DNA of 42,924 nucleotides from the NCBI GenBank assembly GCA_903919615.1, contig CAIXIX010000468.1, positions 1 through 42,924 on the forward strand, in the 5' to 3' direction. Shown here one piece after another: positions 36,768 through 41,032 of the stretch; the first letter of the stretch is position 1; the number at the start of each line of letters is the position of its first letter. The notes below the pieces were generated by a model. That model did no database searches, had not been told where the DNA came from, and saw nothing but the letters and a program-made list of their open reading frames with translations. The translations under genes were made by a program, and so were the position numbers. This DNA is from an uncultured Chthonomonas sp. (GTDB lineage: Bacteria; Armatimonadota; Chthonomonadetes; Chthonomonadales; Chthonomonadaceae).

Positions 36768-37484
36768 TTAGTCTGGACGATCGGAACCCACATCGGAAAG
36801 TTTATACCCGTATCCTCGTACGGTAAGCAGCAGTTGTGGCTGTTCTGGATTCTGCTCAATTTTACATCTAATTCGTCGTATACAGACGACAAGTGCTTTG
36901 ATGCCCAATTCTGCGTCGTAACCCCATACCTGCTCGAAGATCCAGTCGTTCGCAAGCGCTCTGCCTCGGTTGCGCGCGAGCAGAAGAAGAGTGTCGAATT
37001 CGCGCGAAGTGAGGCCAGCAGGTTTGCCAGAGATGACAGCATCATGCAGATCCAGATCGATCTGAAGCGCCCCAACCGTTATCTTACTGGATCCGATCTC
37101 CCGATGAAACGAATCATATTCGCGGGTGCGTCGGAGATGCGCCCGAACCCTTGCGAGGATCTCTTGGGGCTCAAATGGCTTCGTGATGTAGTCGTCTGCG
37201 CCTACTTCCAGGCCAATCATCTTATCCGCGAGCGCATCTCGCGCCGTTAAGAGCAAGATCGGCAGATTATGCCTTGAGCGCGCTCGCCTGCATACGGAAA
37301 TTCCATCCATATCCGGAAGCCCAATATCAAGCAGCATAATGTCAAATGCTTCGGCGTCCAGAAGTTGGAGCGCTTCCGCCCCAGTTACCGCCGTGGTGCA
37401 ATGGTATCCATCCATTGCGAACAGGCGTACCAGTGGGTTGAGCACGAATCGATCATCATCGACCAGCAGCAGCTTTCCGCTCAT
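36768..37484 (-). CDS. OmpR/PhoB family response regulator
   Basis: A 238-aa two-component regulator. The receiver domain (residues 1-115) has the acidic pair Asp9/Asp10, phospho-acceptor Asp53 (LLDIGLPD) and Lys in TKPFEP. The C-terminal winged helix of the Trans_reg_C type is about 135-232 (LTSREFDTLLLLARNRGRAL, then RIRCKIEQNPEQPQLLLTVR and GYGYKL). It follows a PAS histidine kinase by 2 bases. OmpR-family members bind direct repeats of about 11 bp period; exactly such repeats lie upstream of this operon (40002-40042) and of the divergent ferritin-like gene (40082-40122). Confidence 0.95.
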   Translation of the reverse strand: MSGKLLLVDDDRFVLNPLVRLFAMDGYHCTTAVTGAEALQLLDAEAFDIMLLDIGLPDMDGISVCRRARSRHNLPILLLTARDALADKMIGLEVGADDYITKPFEPQEILARVRAHLRRTREYDSFHREIGSSKITVGALQIDLDLHDAVISGKPAGLTSREFDTLLLLARNRGRALANDWIFEQVWGYDAELGIKALVVCIRRIRCKIEQNPEQPQLLLTVRGYGYKLSDVGSDRPD

Positions 37485-37486
37485 CG

Positions 37487-38686
37487 TTACAGCCCCCCGA
37501 TCTGCAGAATATCGGCTTCACGCCGCGCCACAATGCTGTCGTGTCTGTCACCATGTTCCTCATTGTATGCTGCGCATGGCAGCCAGACGGAGACGCGAGC
37601 CCCGTGTTCCATACGGTTTGTAACTGATATCTCGCCCGAATGCGCTTCAACGATGCGTTTTGCGCTGAAGAGACCAAGACCCGTTCGGTTGCTGCGCGTT
37701 GTGAAAAACGGTTCAAAAACCTGACTTAAGCACTCTTCGGGAATTCCTGGACCGGTATCAAAAACATCAACCCGCAGTCTATTTCCCTCTCGGTTCACCG
37801 CGACGACAAGCTCGCCACCCTCTGCGGCCATGGCATCGAGGCCATTTAACACCAGATTTATAAACAGGTGCTCGAGGCGGCGAGGGTTACCATAGGCAGG
37901 CGGAGCATCCGCTGCGGGCGATTGAGTGAGCACTACATTATCGATTTCCGCCTGGCCCCGAACCAGTTGAAACACGAATCTGATCACTTCGGTCACATCT
38001 ACGGGGCCAGATTCTGTAGGCGCCTCATTGGATAACGCCAGGAGAGAATGTGTTAACGCGTAGAGCCGATCAAGCTGCTGAGCCAGAAAATCGCTCGTCT
38101 CCGGAAGATGGGATGCCGCCGTTCCCAATCGCAGCGAAGTAAGAATATTGCGTAGATCGTGCGCAATTCCGGTTGCGAGGGCCCCTACTGCGCGCATTTG
38201 GGTGGTTGCCAGCAAAATCTGCTGGGCGCTGTGAAGCTCCGCTGCCTGCTGCGCTAGGCGCTCTTCCAGCCTCGATGCATGGTTCTCCACCTCAGCCTGC
38301 AGGCGTCGGGTTTCGGTAACATCCAGGAAGGTCCAAATTCGGCCCACGAGTTCTCCGTCTTCGCGGAGGACTGGCGCCGTGTGGCGACGCAGGATCCGTG
38401 GCACCGGGCGGACGACCTGAATCTCATCTTCCTGTTCGAGATTAGGATCACGATATACGCGGTCGATCACTTCGGCAAACTCTAAAGGGTCTTTAACCCT
38501 ATCCAGCGCCAATCGCCTCATCTCTTCTCTCGGAAGCACGCCAACCGCTTCGGAATCTATGCCAAAGAGCTCATTAAATCGCTGATTGCACAACAGATCC
38601 GTGCCTGTAAGATCGGTCATCAGGATGCCGTAGTCCGTCGCCTGAAAAAGTGCGCGGAGAAATCCATTGTTATGTTTACTGGGCAT
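37487..38686 (-). CDS. PAS-domain sensor histidine kinase
   Basis: A 399-aa soluble kinase with no transmembrane segment. The PAS domain spans about residues 5-120 (LFQATDYGILMTDLTGTDLL). A coiled coil follows (ENHASRLEERLAQQAAELHS), then the dimerisation/phospho-acceptor region with His176 (GIAHDLRNIL) and a HATPase_c domain with LFINLVLNGLDAM (N box), DTGPGIPEE and FFTTRSNRTGLGLF (F/G2 boxes). The ATG at 38686 is chosen: GGGGAGA lies 9 bases upstream, and it overlaps the preceding kinase gene by 11 bases. The response regulator gene follows after 2 bases. Confidence 0.93.
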   Translation of the reverse strand: MPSKHNNGFLRALFQATDYGILMTDLTGTDLLCNQRFNELFGIDSEAVGVLPREEMRRLALDRVKDPLEFAEVIDRVYRDPNLEQEDEIQVVRPVPRILRRHTAPVLREDGELVGRIWTFLDVTETRRLQAEVENHASRLEERLAQQAAELHSAQQILLATTQMRAVGALATGIAHDLRNILTSLRLGTAASHLPETSDFLAQQLDRLYALTHSLLALSNEAPTESGPVDVTEVIRFVFQLVRGQAEIDNVVLTQSPAADAPPAYGNPRRLEHLFINLVLNGLDAMAAEGGELVVAVNREGNRLRVDVFDTGPGIPEECLSQVFEPFFTTRSNRTGLGLFSAKRIVEAHSGEISVTNRMEHGARVSVWLPCAAYNEEHGDRHDSIVARREADILQIGGL

Positions 38687-39941
38687 CGCTGTAACTCTCC
38701 CCGAGTTCGATCGGCATCTCGACCCGAAACCACGCGCCCTCACCGGACACGCTATGAAACGTCATCTCACCCTGGAGGACTGTGCTAAGTCGGTGGGCTA
38801 TCGCTAGACCGAGGCCAGCGCCGCGGCCAGAGTTGCCGGAGCCACAGTAGTAGGGCTCAAAAACCCGTGACAGCTCTTCCAGACCGATACCTGTTCCCGT
38901 GTCCGACACGGTTAGTGCCCATTTATTTTCATCAACCCGGGTCGCGCTTACCGTCACCACTCCCTGTTGGGTGTACTTGAGCGCATTTGCAACTAGGTTC
39001 AGGATCACGTGGCGCAGTTTGGCGGCATCTGTAGTCACCGGAGGCAATTCGGCATCGATATCGTAGCTAACTGGAACTTCGTTAGGCACCGATGAAACCG
39101 CTCCATGCTGGATACATTGCTGCAAGAATTCGGAGACTGCAATCGTCTCAAGCGATATTCGGCTCTTTCCGGCCTCGACCTGATCGTATAGCACCAGTTC
39201 GTCTAGCATTGTTGAGAGCAATTGGGTTCGATTATCCAGGGCATCAATCTGGTTTGCCCTGCGTCCCGGGTCTGGCTCGTTTCGAAGCAGGTATAACTCG
39301 GTCCTCATAGAGGTTAGCGGATGCCTGAGGTCGTGTATCACCATCGAAACGAAGTTACGCTTTTCTTCGGCGGTTTTCTCTAGCTGCCGGGTATACCGTG
39401 CCTCCTCATCAATGCGTGCCTGGATCGTTCGTTCACGTTCAAGCTCCGCGCTAACCCTCATTGCAAGCAGCGAAATAAATCGTATGTCGTCGTCGCCTAG
39501 CAGATCATCTACGCGATCGTCCAGAAAGCAGAGCGTCCCAATGGGCTCGCCAGCACTGTTCCATACTGGCACGCCTAAGTAACGCCGAAGCTTCAATCTG
39601 ACAACGGGATGGTGACAAAAAACAGGATGCTGCGCAGCATTCTGGATGAGCAAGGGGCTGCGATTCTTAAGCGAGTACTGACACAGCGTATGCTCCAGCG
39701 CGAATGTATCGGTGCGGGCGAAGAGCCGATGTCTGTTGGCAACTGTTTTGAACCTCAGGCATTCCCCATCTCTCAGGTTCAGCATCGCCATCGTCCGGCG
39801 GGGCGCGCGCTCACTACTGTCGCCTCCGGCTGCGCTGTAATATTCGGAGACCGCCTCGATTATGCGGGTGTACACCGCTTCAGGATCTGTCGAATAGAAA
39901 AGGCTCGTCTGCAGCAGAGCGTCAACTATACCGGGGGTCAC
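38676..39941 (-). CDS. GAF-domain sensor histidine kinase
   Basis: A 421-aa soluble kinase. The GAF domain is at about residues 20-170 (RYLGVPVWNSAGEPIGTLCF). A helical linker, a HisKA domain with His203 (MVIHDLRHPLTSM) and a HATPase_c domain (ILNLVANALKYTQQG, then DTGTGIGLEELSRVFEPYY and GAGLGLAIAHRL) follow. The GTG at 39941 is proposed as start: AAAGGA lies 9 bases upstream and the preceding frame has no family resemblance. An in-frame ATG at 40055 is the alternative but would lie inside the promoter repeats. It is first in an operon with the PAS kinase and response regulator. GAF ligands vary; none is evident here. Confidence 0.9.
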   Translation of the reverse strand: MTPGIVDALLQTSLFYSTDPEAVYTRIIEAVSEYYSAAGGDSSERAPRRTMAMLNLRDGECLRFKTVANRHRLFARTDTFALEHTLCQYSLKNRSPLLIQNAAQHPVFCHHPVVRLKLRRYLGVPVWNSAGEPIGTLCFLDDRVDDLLGDDDIRFISLLAMRVSAELERERTIQARIDEEARYTRQLEKTAEEKRNFVSMVIHDLRHPLTSMRTELYLLRNEPDPGRRANQIDALDNRTQLLSTMLDELVLYDQVEAGKSRISLETIAVSEFLQQCIQHGAVSSVPNEVPVSYDIDAELPPVTTDAAKLRHVILNLVANALKYTQQGVVTVSATRVDENKWALTVSDTGTGIGLEELSRVFEPYYCGSGNSGRGAGLGLAIAHRLSTVLQGEMTFHSVSGEGAWFRVEMPIELGESYSDAQ

Positions 39942-40001
39942 AGGCGATAGTCCTTTCAAAGTGAACCGTTTAACGGAAGCAGCTATAGAATGACGGATAC
40001 A

Positions 40002-40042
40002 GATTACAAACAGGTTACAGGATGGATACGGAATTGTTACGC
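40002..40042 (-). promoter_or_regulatory. Four 11-bp-spaced direct repeats upstream of the two-component operon
   Basis: On the minus strand, in transcription order: GCGTAACA (40042-40035), CCGTATCC (40031-40024), CTGTAACC (40020-40013) and TTGTAATC (40009-40002), each 11 bases apart, consensus NNGTAAYC. The last two are the best. A -10-like TATAGC follows at 39987-39982. The geometry fits tandem binding of an OmpR/PhoB-family regulator such as the one encoded at 36768-37484. The first two repeats are degenerate. Confidence 0.6.
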
Positions 40043-40081
40043 AGAGGCGTCTCAAGCGTATCCGTTTAAGCGCTATACAAT

Positions 40082-40137
40082 TTGTAACCTTGCTGTAACC
40101 CGGAGGTAACCCGATTCTAACCTGCCTCTCCTACACT
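40082..40137 (+). promoter_or_regulatory. Pho-box-like repeats and -10 of the ferritin-like gene
   Basis: TTGTAACC (40082), CTGTAACC (40093), AGGTAACC (40104) and TTCTAACC (40115) recur with an exact 11-base period. They end 9 bases before a TACACT -10 (40132-40137), taking the place of a -35 element, as boxes do in PhoB-type activated promoters. Transcription would start near 40144. Assignment to the neighbouring response regulator is inference. Confidence 0.7.
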
Positions 40138-40207: not shown

Positions 40208-41032
40208 ATGCCGGACACAAAAGTAAGTGAAACTGCATCCGCTTTTGCTCTTATGAACCGACGGAGTCTCGTAACGCGAGCTGGCAGCGTCGCTTTCGGC
40301 GCGGCTACTGCGGCGCTCTTAGCTGGATGCGGGGGCGGGAATAGTTCGTCCAAGACAGCGGGCAATATGGATCAATCGATTCTGAATGCGGCAGCTACAG
40401 CCGAGGCGCTGGCCACTGTCATGTATTACAACATAATTAACGTGCCCGGCTCCATCTACCAGACTGGCGCAATAAGCAGTAATGCCCCAGACAAGGCGTA
40501 CCTCGTCGCGGGGTACGAGCAGGAGCTCAGCCATTACAACTTCCTCGTTGCTCATGGTGGAAAGCCGCTTGCCACAACATTCTACTTCCCAACAAATATG
40601 TTTACCGACCCGCAAACAACCGTAAACACTCTTGTTACACTGGAAGACGCGTTTATTGCGGCCTATCTAATTGGCGTCCGCGATTTCTCATCGACCGCGC
40701 TGAAAGTGATCGCTGGCCAGATTATGGGAGTTGAAGCGGAGCATCGGGCGCTTGCACGTGTTATCACGAACGACCTTAACCTGACCTCCGTATCGGGTCT
40801 GGCAGGCGCTGAGGGTGTTGCTGCCCCCGGGGCGACAGCAAATAACCTCGCGTATGAGCGGACTTTCAGCACGGCTTTGCCGGATATCTCGCATGTGGTT
40901 ACCGCGCTCGGTCCATTTGTAACACCGGGATCAACCGGTTTCGCCGCAACGGCGTACCCATTAAGTGTCGCAAATGGCGCTGCGCCATCCGCGGGACAGA
41001 CCATGGTTACGCTGGCGGGTACAACGCCGTAA
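40208..41032 (+). CDS. Ferritin-like domain Tat lipoprotein
   Basis: A 274-aa exported protein of the ferritin-like (PF13668-type) family, related to bacterial desiccation-associated proteins. The N terminus has a twin-arginine start (MNRRSLVTRAG) and a lipobox LAGC with Cys41 as the lipidation site (ALLAGCGGG). Glu/His helices typical of four-helix ferritin folds follow: AEALATVMYY, YEQELSHYNFL, TLEDAFIAAYLIGV and VEAEHRALARV. Metal binding is expected but which metal is not decided. AGGAGA lies 7 bases before the ATG. Its promoter carries four direct repeats that may bind the adjacent response regulator. A strong terminator follows at 41128. No enzymatic role is known for close relatives. 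Confidence 0.82.
   Translation: MPDTKVSETASAFALMNRRSLVTRAGSVAFGAATAALLAGCGGGNSSSKTAGNMDQSILNAAATAEALATVMYYNIINVPGSIYQTGAISSNAPDKAYLVAGYEQELSHYNFLVAHGGKPLATTFYFPTNMFTDPQTTVNTLVTLEDAFIAAYLIGVRDFSSTALKVIAGQIMGVEAEHRALARVITNDLNLTSVSGLAGAEGVAAPGATANNLAYERTFSTALPDISHVVTALGPFVTPGSTGFAATAYPLSVANGAAPSAGQTMVTLAGTTP

Follow-up and report, generated by a model that had tools for sequence, protein, structure and literature searches.

A conserved four-repeat operator predicted to link an OmpR-family two-component system to a ferritin-like lipoprotein gene in Chthonomonadaceae

The closest described counterparts of the locus analysed here are the PhoB, MtrA, and GlnR systems. PhoB binds head-to-tail on 11-nt direct repeats and contacts the sigma subunit (PMC4415409). 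The consensus of Streptomyces coelicolor MtrA has been stated as GTAACCNNNNNGTAACC (PMC12323332), and for this global regulator hundreds of sites have been predicted (PMC5650626). GlnR boxes are GTnAC-n6-GTnAC and GaAAC-n6 repeats, arranged in an a-b-a-b series of four (PMC10704036). As for the target, tardigrade and Deinococcus members of PF13668 are metal-dependent metabolite phosphatases; RvFeMP-1 is a dinuclear-metal enzyme of this kind, and survival of drying falls when DRB0118 is lost (PMC11616004).

The window, that is, the whole stretch of DNA analysed (42,924 nt, contig CAIXIX010000468.1), belongs to a 7.4-Mb genome of the family Chthonomonadaceae (Armatimonadota), coded G000 in the comparison. 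We consider it very likely that the four-repeat site found before a ferritin-like lipoprotein gene is a genuine switch, familiar in type and serving a new, dedicated target. The operator is real and conserved, and the pairing of regulator and target is convincing. A phylum with sparse regulatory work gains a testable trio of regulator, operator, and target, and PF13668, a stress-linked and poorly understood family, is now linked with one particular signalling system, a link that offers a route to its cues.

Two divergent arrays between the operon and the lipoprotein gene

The locus comprises the following features.

36768–37484, minus strand: OmpR/PhoB-family response regulator (Pfam Response_reg and Trans_reg_C)
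37487–38686, minus strand: PAS-domain histidine kinase (Pfam PAS, HATPase_c, HisKA; likely start ATG 38686)
38676–39941, minus strand: GAF-domain histidine kinase (Pfam GAF, HisKA, HATPase_c)
39982–39987, minus strand: alternative -10, TATAGC, by inspection
39987–39992, minus strand: possible, weak -10, CATTCT, 9 nt past the last minus repeat, proposed by inspection
40000–40043, minus strand: predicted four-repeat operator facing the kinase/regulator operon, TGCGTAACAAT TCCGTATCCAT CCTGTAACCTG TTTGTAATCTG
40081–40124, plus strand: predicted four-repeat operator of the ferritin-like gene, TTTGTAACCTT GCTGTAACCCG GAGGTAACCCG ATTCTAACCTG, 11-bp direct repeats of TTTGTAACC type
40132–40137, plus strand: probable -10, TACACT, exactly 9 nt past the last repeat, read from the sequence
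40208–41032, plus strand: target gene, Tat lipoprotein of the Ferritin_2 family (PF13668)

The plus-strand array was confirmed where the initial annotation had placed it: the octamers TTGTAACC, CTGTAACC, AGGTAACC, and TTCTAACC start at 40082, 40093, 40104, and 40115, with an exact 11-bp period, and the -10 follows nine bases on. Exact GTAACCNNNNNGTAACC matches occur at 40084 and 40095, and the consensus of the arrays is TTTGTAAYC. A scan for sigma-70 consensus promoters and terminators found none, and neither did a search for RNA families; the lack of a consensus promoter is expected where an activator replaces the -35 element. On the minus strand, the words GTAACA, GTATCC, GTAACC, and GTAATC run from 40040 to 40002 with the same period. 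These four repeats had been described as weaker; their presence was upheld, their weakness was not, as a matrix derived without the window scores the plus array at 25.9 and the minus array at 25.7, with ten shuffled windows reaching at most 13.0.

The three genes of the operon lie close together, with overlaps or almost no gap between them, the PAS kinase starting before the GAF kinase gene ends. The GAF kinase likely starts at GTG 39941, 9 nt after AAAGGA (ribosome-binding site, 39951–39956), and with this start the minus array is not part of the coding sequence. The listed start, TTG 40055, was rejected: its open reading frame would take in the minus array, and the sister species, Chthonomonas sp. 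bin-780 (G001), congeneric with the window's genome, starts at the position of GTG 39941. In the regulator, D9, D10, D53, and K102 are invariant among eight orthologs, the phospho-acceptor aspartate and the acidic pocket being kept, and the solved structures nearest to its profile are RegX3 and MtrA, the latter as second-best. The system thus presents the features of the OmpR/PhoB family, namely a receiver with a winged-helix Trans_reg_C domain, a conserved acidic pocket, and 11-bp repeats conserved beyond chance, to which the regulator is predicted to bind.

The resemblance to the E. coli Pho box lies in the 11-nt direct repeats, in the OmpR/PhoB-family regulator, and in an array beside the -10 that replaces the -35. 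The locus differs from it in its consensus (GTAAYC, within TTTGTAAYC, instead of CTGTCAT), in that no phosphate genes were seen next to it, in an almost single target, and in kinases with GAF/PAS sensor domains only. The claim that the repeat is unlike the Pho box therefore stands as regards CTGTCAT, but its core is identical to the S. coelicolor MtrA consensus GTAACCNNNNNGTAACC, and the motif is not new, having already been published for Streptomyces MtrA. Compared with MtrA of Streptomyces and Mycobacterium, which shares this core, we observe four repeats, one main target, other partner kinases, and another phylum. MtrB, the partner of MtrA, is a membrane kinase, whereas the sensor domains of the partner kinases here are limited to GAF or PAS, with no HAMP domain found by Pfam. 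The GlnR box of actinomycetes has the same 11-nt period, but it serves nitrogen genes and alternates two half-site types, in contrast to the single repeated type of this locus.

Conservation in the family and rarity of the pattern

Comparison with related genomes bore the arrays out. The lipoprotein subfamily is present in 8 of the 17 family genomes, and four repeats with an 11-bp period recur at all nine of its promoters (eight genomes, G005 twice). A TANNNT hexamer starts about 9–10 nt past the array in eight of the nine (spacing judged by eye), the exception being G009, with about 20 nt before the candidate -10. The array is the top of its locus in 9/9 cases and beats every shuffle in 8/9 with a leave-one-out matrix, to be read with the qualification that the matrix is derived from the same promoters, which leaving one out corrects only partly, and that related genera are not independent. 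The G001 array scores 15.0, and one of ten shuffled loci hits 17.7; in G002, G012, and G014, which form one genus, the later repeats are degenerate.

The gene order varies. In G000 and G001 the ferritin-like gene and the operon diverge; in G002, G005, G009, G012, and G014 the gene comes immediately after those of the PAS kinase and the regulator, and in G003 it lies about 2.3 kb downstream of them. Close orthologs of the PAS kinase (E < 1e-60) are found in exactly the eight lipoprotein-bearing genomes, and those of the regulator in the same eight plus G006. The GAF kinase has an ortholog in 2 genomes only, so the “two-kinase system” of the initial annotation describes this genus and not the family. 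The co-occurrence of array, target, PAS kinase, and regulator throughout the family supports, at the level of sequence, two further proposals made there, that the array would belong to the neighbouring OmpR-family regulator and that it would form a Pho-box-like activated promoter for the ferritin-like gene.

Two loci depart from the common arrangement. G006 has the regulator ortholog but lacks a close lipoprotein ortholog, and no array lies in the vicinity; its locus (G006:C166, L172 7385–9794), which carries homologs of the regulator and the PAS kinase, may be a relic, or may act on a different target. In G005, a second ferritin-like copy with its own four-repeat array (G005:C13, L062 6130–6173) lies on a 7-kb contig from which the regulator genes are absent. 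The array thus follows the target, which suggests that this copy may be regulated in trans.

The operon-facing array is less widespread. In the sister species, the divergent layout is kept and intergenic similarity is low, with GTAACC pairs conserved in both orientations; it retains two of the four minus-array repeats as a tandem pair, and the two operon-proximal repeats of the window align with its GTAACC repeats. Matrix scoring found no convincing array at operon starts in other genera. Autoregulation, as originally suggested, is therefore backed within the genus by a regulator-facing array, weaker in the sister species, and does not extend to the other genera; for this genus only, it is plausible that the operon is autoregulated through the second array.

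The pattern is rare. GTAACC-N5-GTAACC with up to 2 mismatches has 10 matches in the window, 6 of them in this region, compared with 1.16 on average and at most 4 in same-window shuffles (n = 100). When the four-repeat pattern was searched in the whole genome, allowing at most 3 mismatches over its 24 positions and with the reversed pattern as control, three overlapping or opposed matches were obtained here, on both strands, and one elsewhere, against 0 for the control. The latter match (G000:C540) was discarded as chance, since it sits inside an open reading frame on another contig, and no other intergenic array of this kind is present in the 7.4-Mb genome. A blind search of the 17 genomes gave nine matches: six on the plus side at ferritin-like promoters (one being an overlapping register in the window), the minus array of the window, the intragenic G000:C540, and G012:C87, before a prepilin-like gene. 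The four-repeat pattern is thus almost confined to ferritin-like promoters; in G001, G002, G012, and G014 the arrays have degenerated too far to match it and were located by position and matrix.

The 11-bp-period regulon that a genome scan had been proposed to define was sought by pattern searches, in which the four-repeat pattern proved nearly unique to the locus. A broad regulon was rejected, as two-repeat sites with up to 1 mismatch numbered 23 versus 38 in the reversed control; three-repeat sites in eight genomes gave scattered matches away from these promoters, and few in the control. Ferritin_2 genes of Acidobacteria, Actinobacteria, other taxa, and Armatimonadota outside the family showed no comparable array, which is thus not a general feature of PF13668.

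A separate series of four repeats, TTAAYC-type and also with an 11-bp period, was found on the minus strand at G012:C87:88010–88048 (L116 1501–1539), 67 bp before the prepilin-like gene (ORF 505–1434). Another regulator of the OmpR family may use it as its operator.

The ferritin-like lipoprotein

The target protein matches the PF13668 profile at 50.8 bits, the curated cut-off being 24.7, and its signal peptide was assigned by inspection, from an NRRSLV twin-arginine motif and an LAGC lipobox. Residues E66, E106, H109, E146, E176, and H179 are invariant, suggesting an intact dinuclear metal site. A profile search with the target retrieved no PDB chains by sequence; a fold search with the predicted model, of moderate confidence (mean pLDDT 59.7), gave RvFeMP-1 as the nearest solved fold. 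In addition to the fold, the lipoprotein shares with RvFeMP-1 and DRB0118 the Pfam family and the pattern of glutamate and ExxH metal ligands, and it differs from them in having two ExxH motifs (E106/H109 and E176/H179), a feature of classical di-iron proteins. Three residues past E146 there is no aspartate as a counterpart of the catalytic Asp135 of RvFeMP-1, and DRB0118 likewise lacks it, the residues of the lipoprotein and RvFeMP-1 having been matched by motif and not by structural superposition. Neither an “iron storage” nor a “phosphatase” role should be assumed from this model-based comparison, and the metal or stress handling suggested in the initial annotation is no more than a possible role.

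Elsewhere in the window's genome, at L063 (G000:C513) 763–2457, there are two adjacent Ferritin_2 genes of another subtype, where the four-repeat pattern has no match.

Proposed mechanism and alternative explanations

The reading that we consider likely is that of a dedicated two-component system with a divergent regulatory region, whose phosphorylated regulator would bind the repeats and activate the lipoprotein gene in the fashion of PhoB. A cytoplasmic kinase, the PAS kinase across the family and also the GAF kinase in this genus, would phosphorylate the OmpR-family regulator, molecules of which would then occupy the four TTTGTAAYC repeats of 11 bp in head-to-tail order. With the repeat closest to the promoter standing in for the -35, 9–10 bp ahead of the -10, the bound regulator would bring in RNA polymerase much like PhoB and so turn on the ferritin-like lipoprotein, an exported protein that probably has a dinuclear metal site. 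For this genus, with its divergent operon, the second array would probably serve for autoregulation. The best reading of the pattern searches is that the switch would have nearly one target. We infer regulator binding, the direction of the effect, and autoregulation; the position of the array points to activation instead of repression, and the missing -35 and the constant spacing agree with activation beside the -10.

An arrangement in which the arrays serve a different member of the OmpR family, perhaps a global regulator of the PhoB/RegX3 sort, the adjoining operon being incidental, would draw on the abundance of OmpR-type regulators in these genomes (paralogs of 37–42% identity) and on the fact that GTAAC-type repeats are common to several members of the family, such as MtrA and GlnR. 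We judge it unlikely: a global regulator should leave many sites, whereas the four-repeat pattern is nearly absent elsewhere in the 17 genomes and two-repeat sites are no commoner than in the reversed control (23 versus 38), and the target and the PAS kinase co-occur in exactly eight genomes. That the repeats are a chance product without function is extremely improbable; short words do recur by chance, and the repeat core has only six bases, but the shuffles, the genome-wide rarity with zero control matches, and the recurrence at nine homologous promoters speak against it.

It is also conceivable, if doubtful, that the neighbouring regulator represses the ferritin-like promoter, or that the minus array forms the upstream portion of a single operator shared with the plus array. 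The arrays adjoin the promoter, a position from which repression is also feasible, their two cores are separated by 43 bp within a single intergenic region, and the operon-facing array is absent outside the genus. Repression, however, fits less well with a weak -10 that lacks a -35 match and with the conserved 9–10 bp spacing, which suit an activator, and against a single operator the minus array points to the operon, with its proximal pair conserved in the sister species.

Beyond activation by the adjoining system, we put forward only tentatively a wider view, in which several genera of one Armatimonadota family would share a nearly one-target switch for a Tat-exported ferritin-like enzyme, of the metabolite-phosphatase kind linked to desiccation and oxidative damage, and one genus would have been rewired to divergent autoregulation by two soluble kinases.

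Finally, in one genus (orthologs in L058, L059, and L061) the recognition helix of the regulator reads YRLRKKIE or YRLRRKIE, not RRxRxKxE, and in the same genus the repeats drift from GTAACC to GTAATG/GTAATT. A co-variation of recognition helix and repeats is possible, on the basis of this single lineage.
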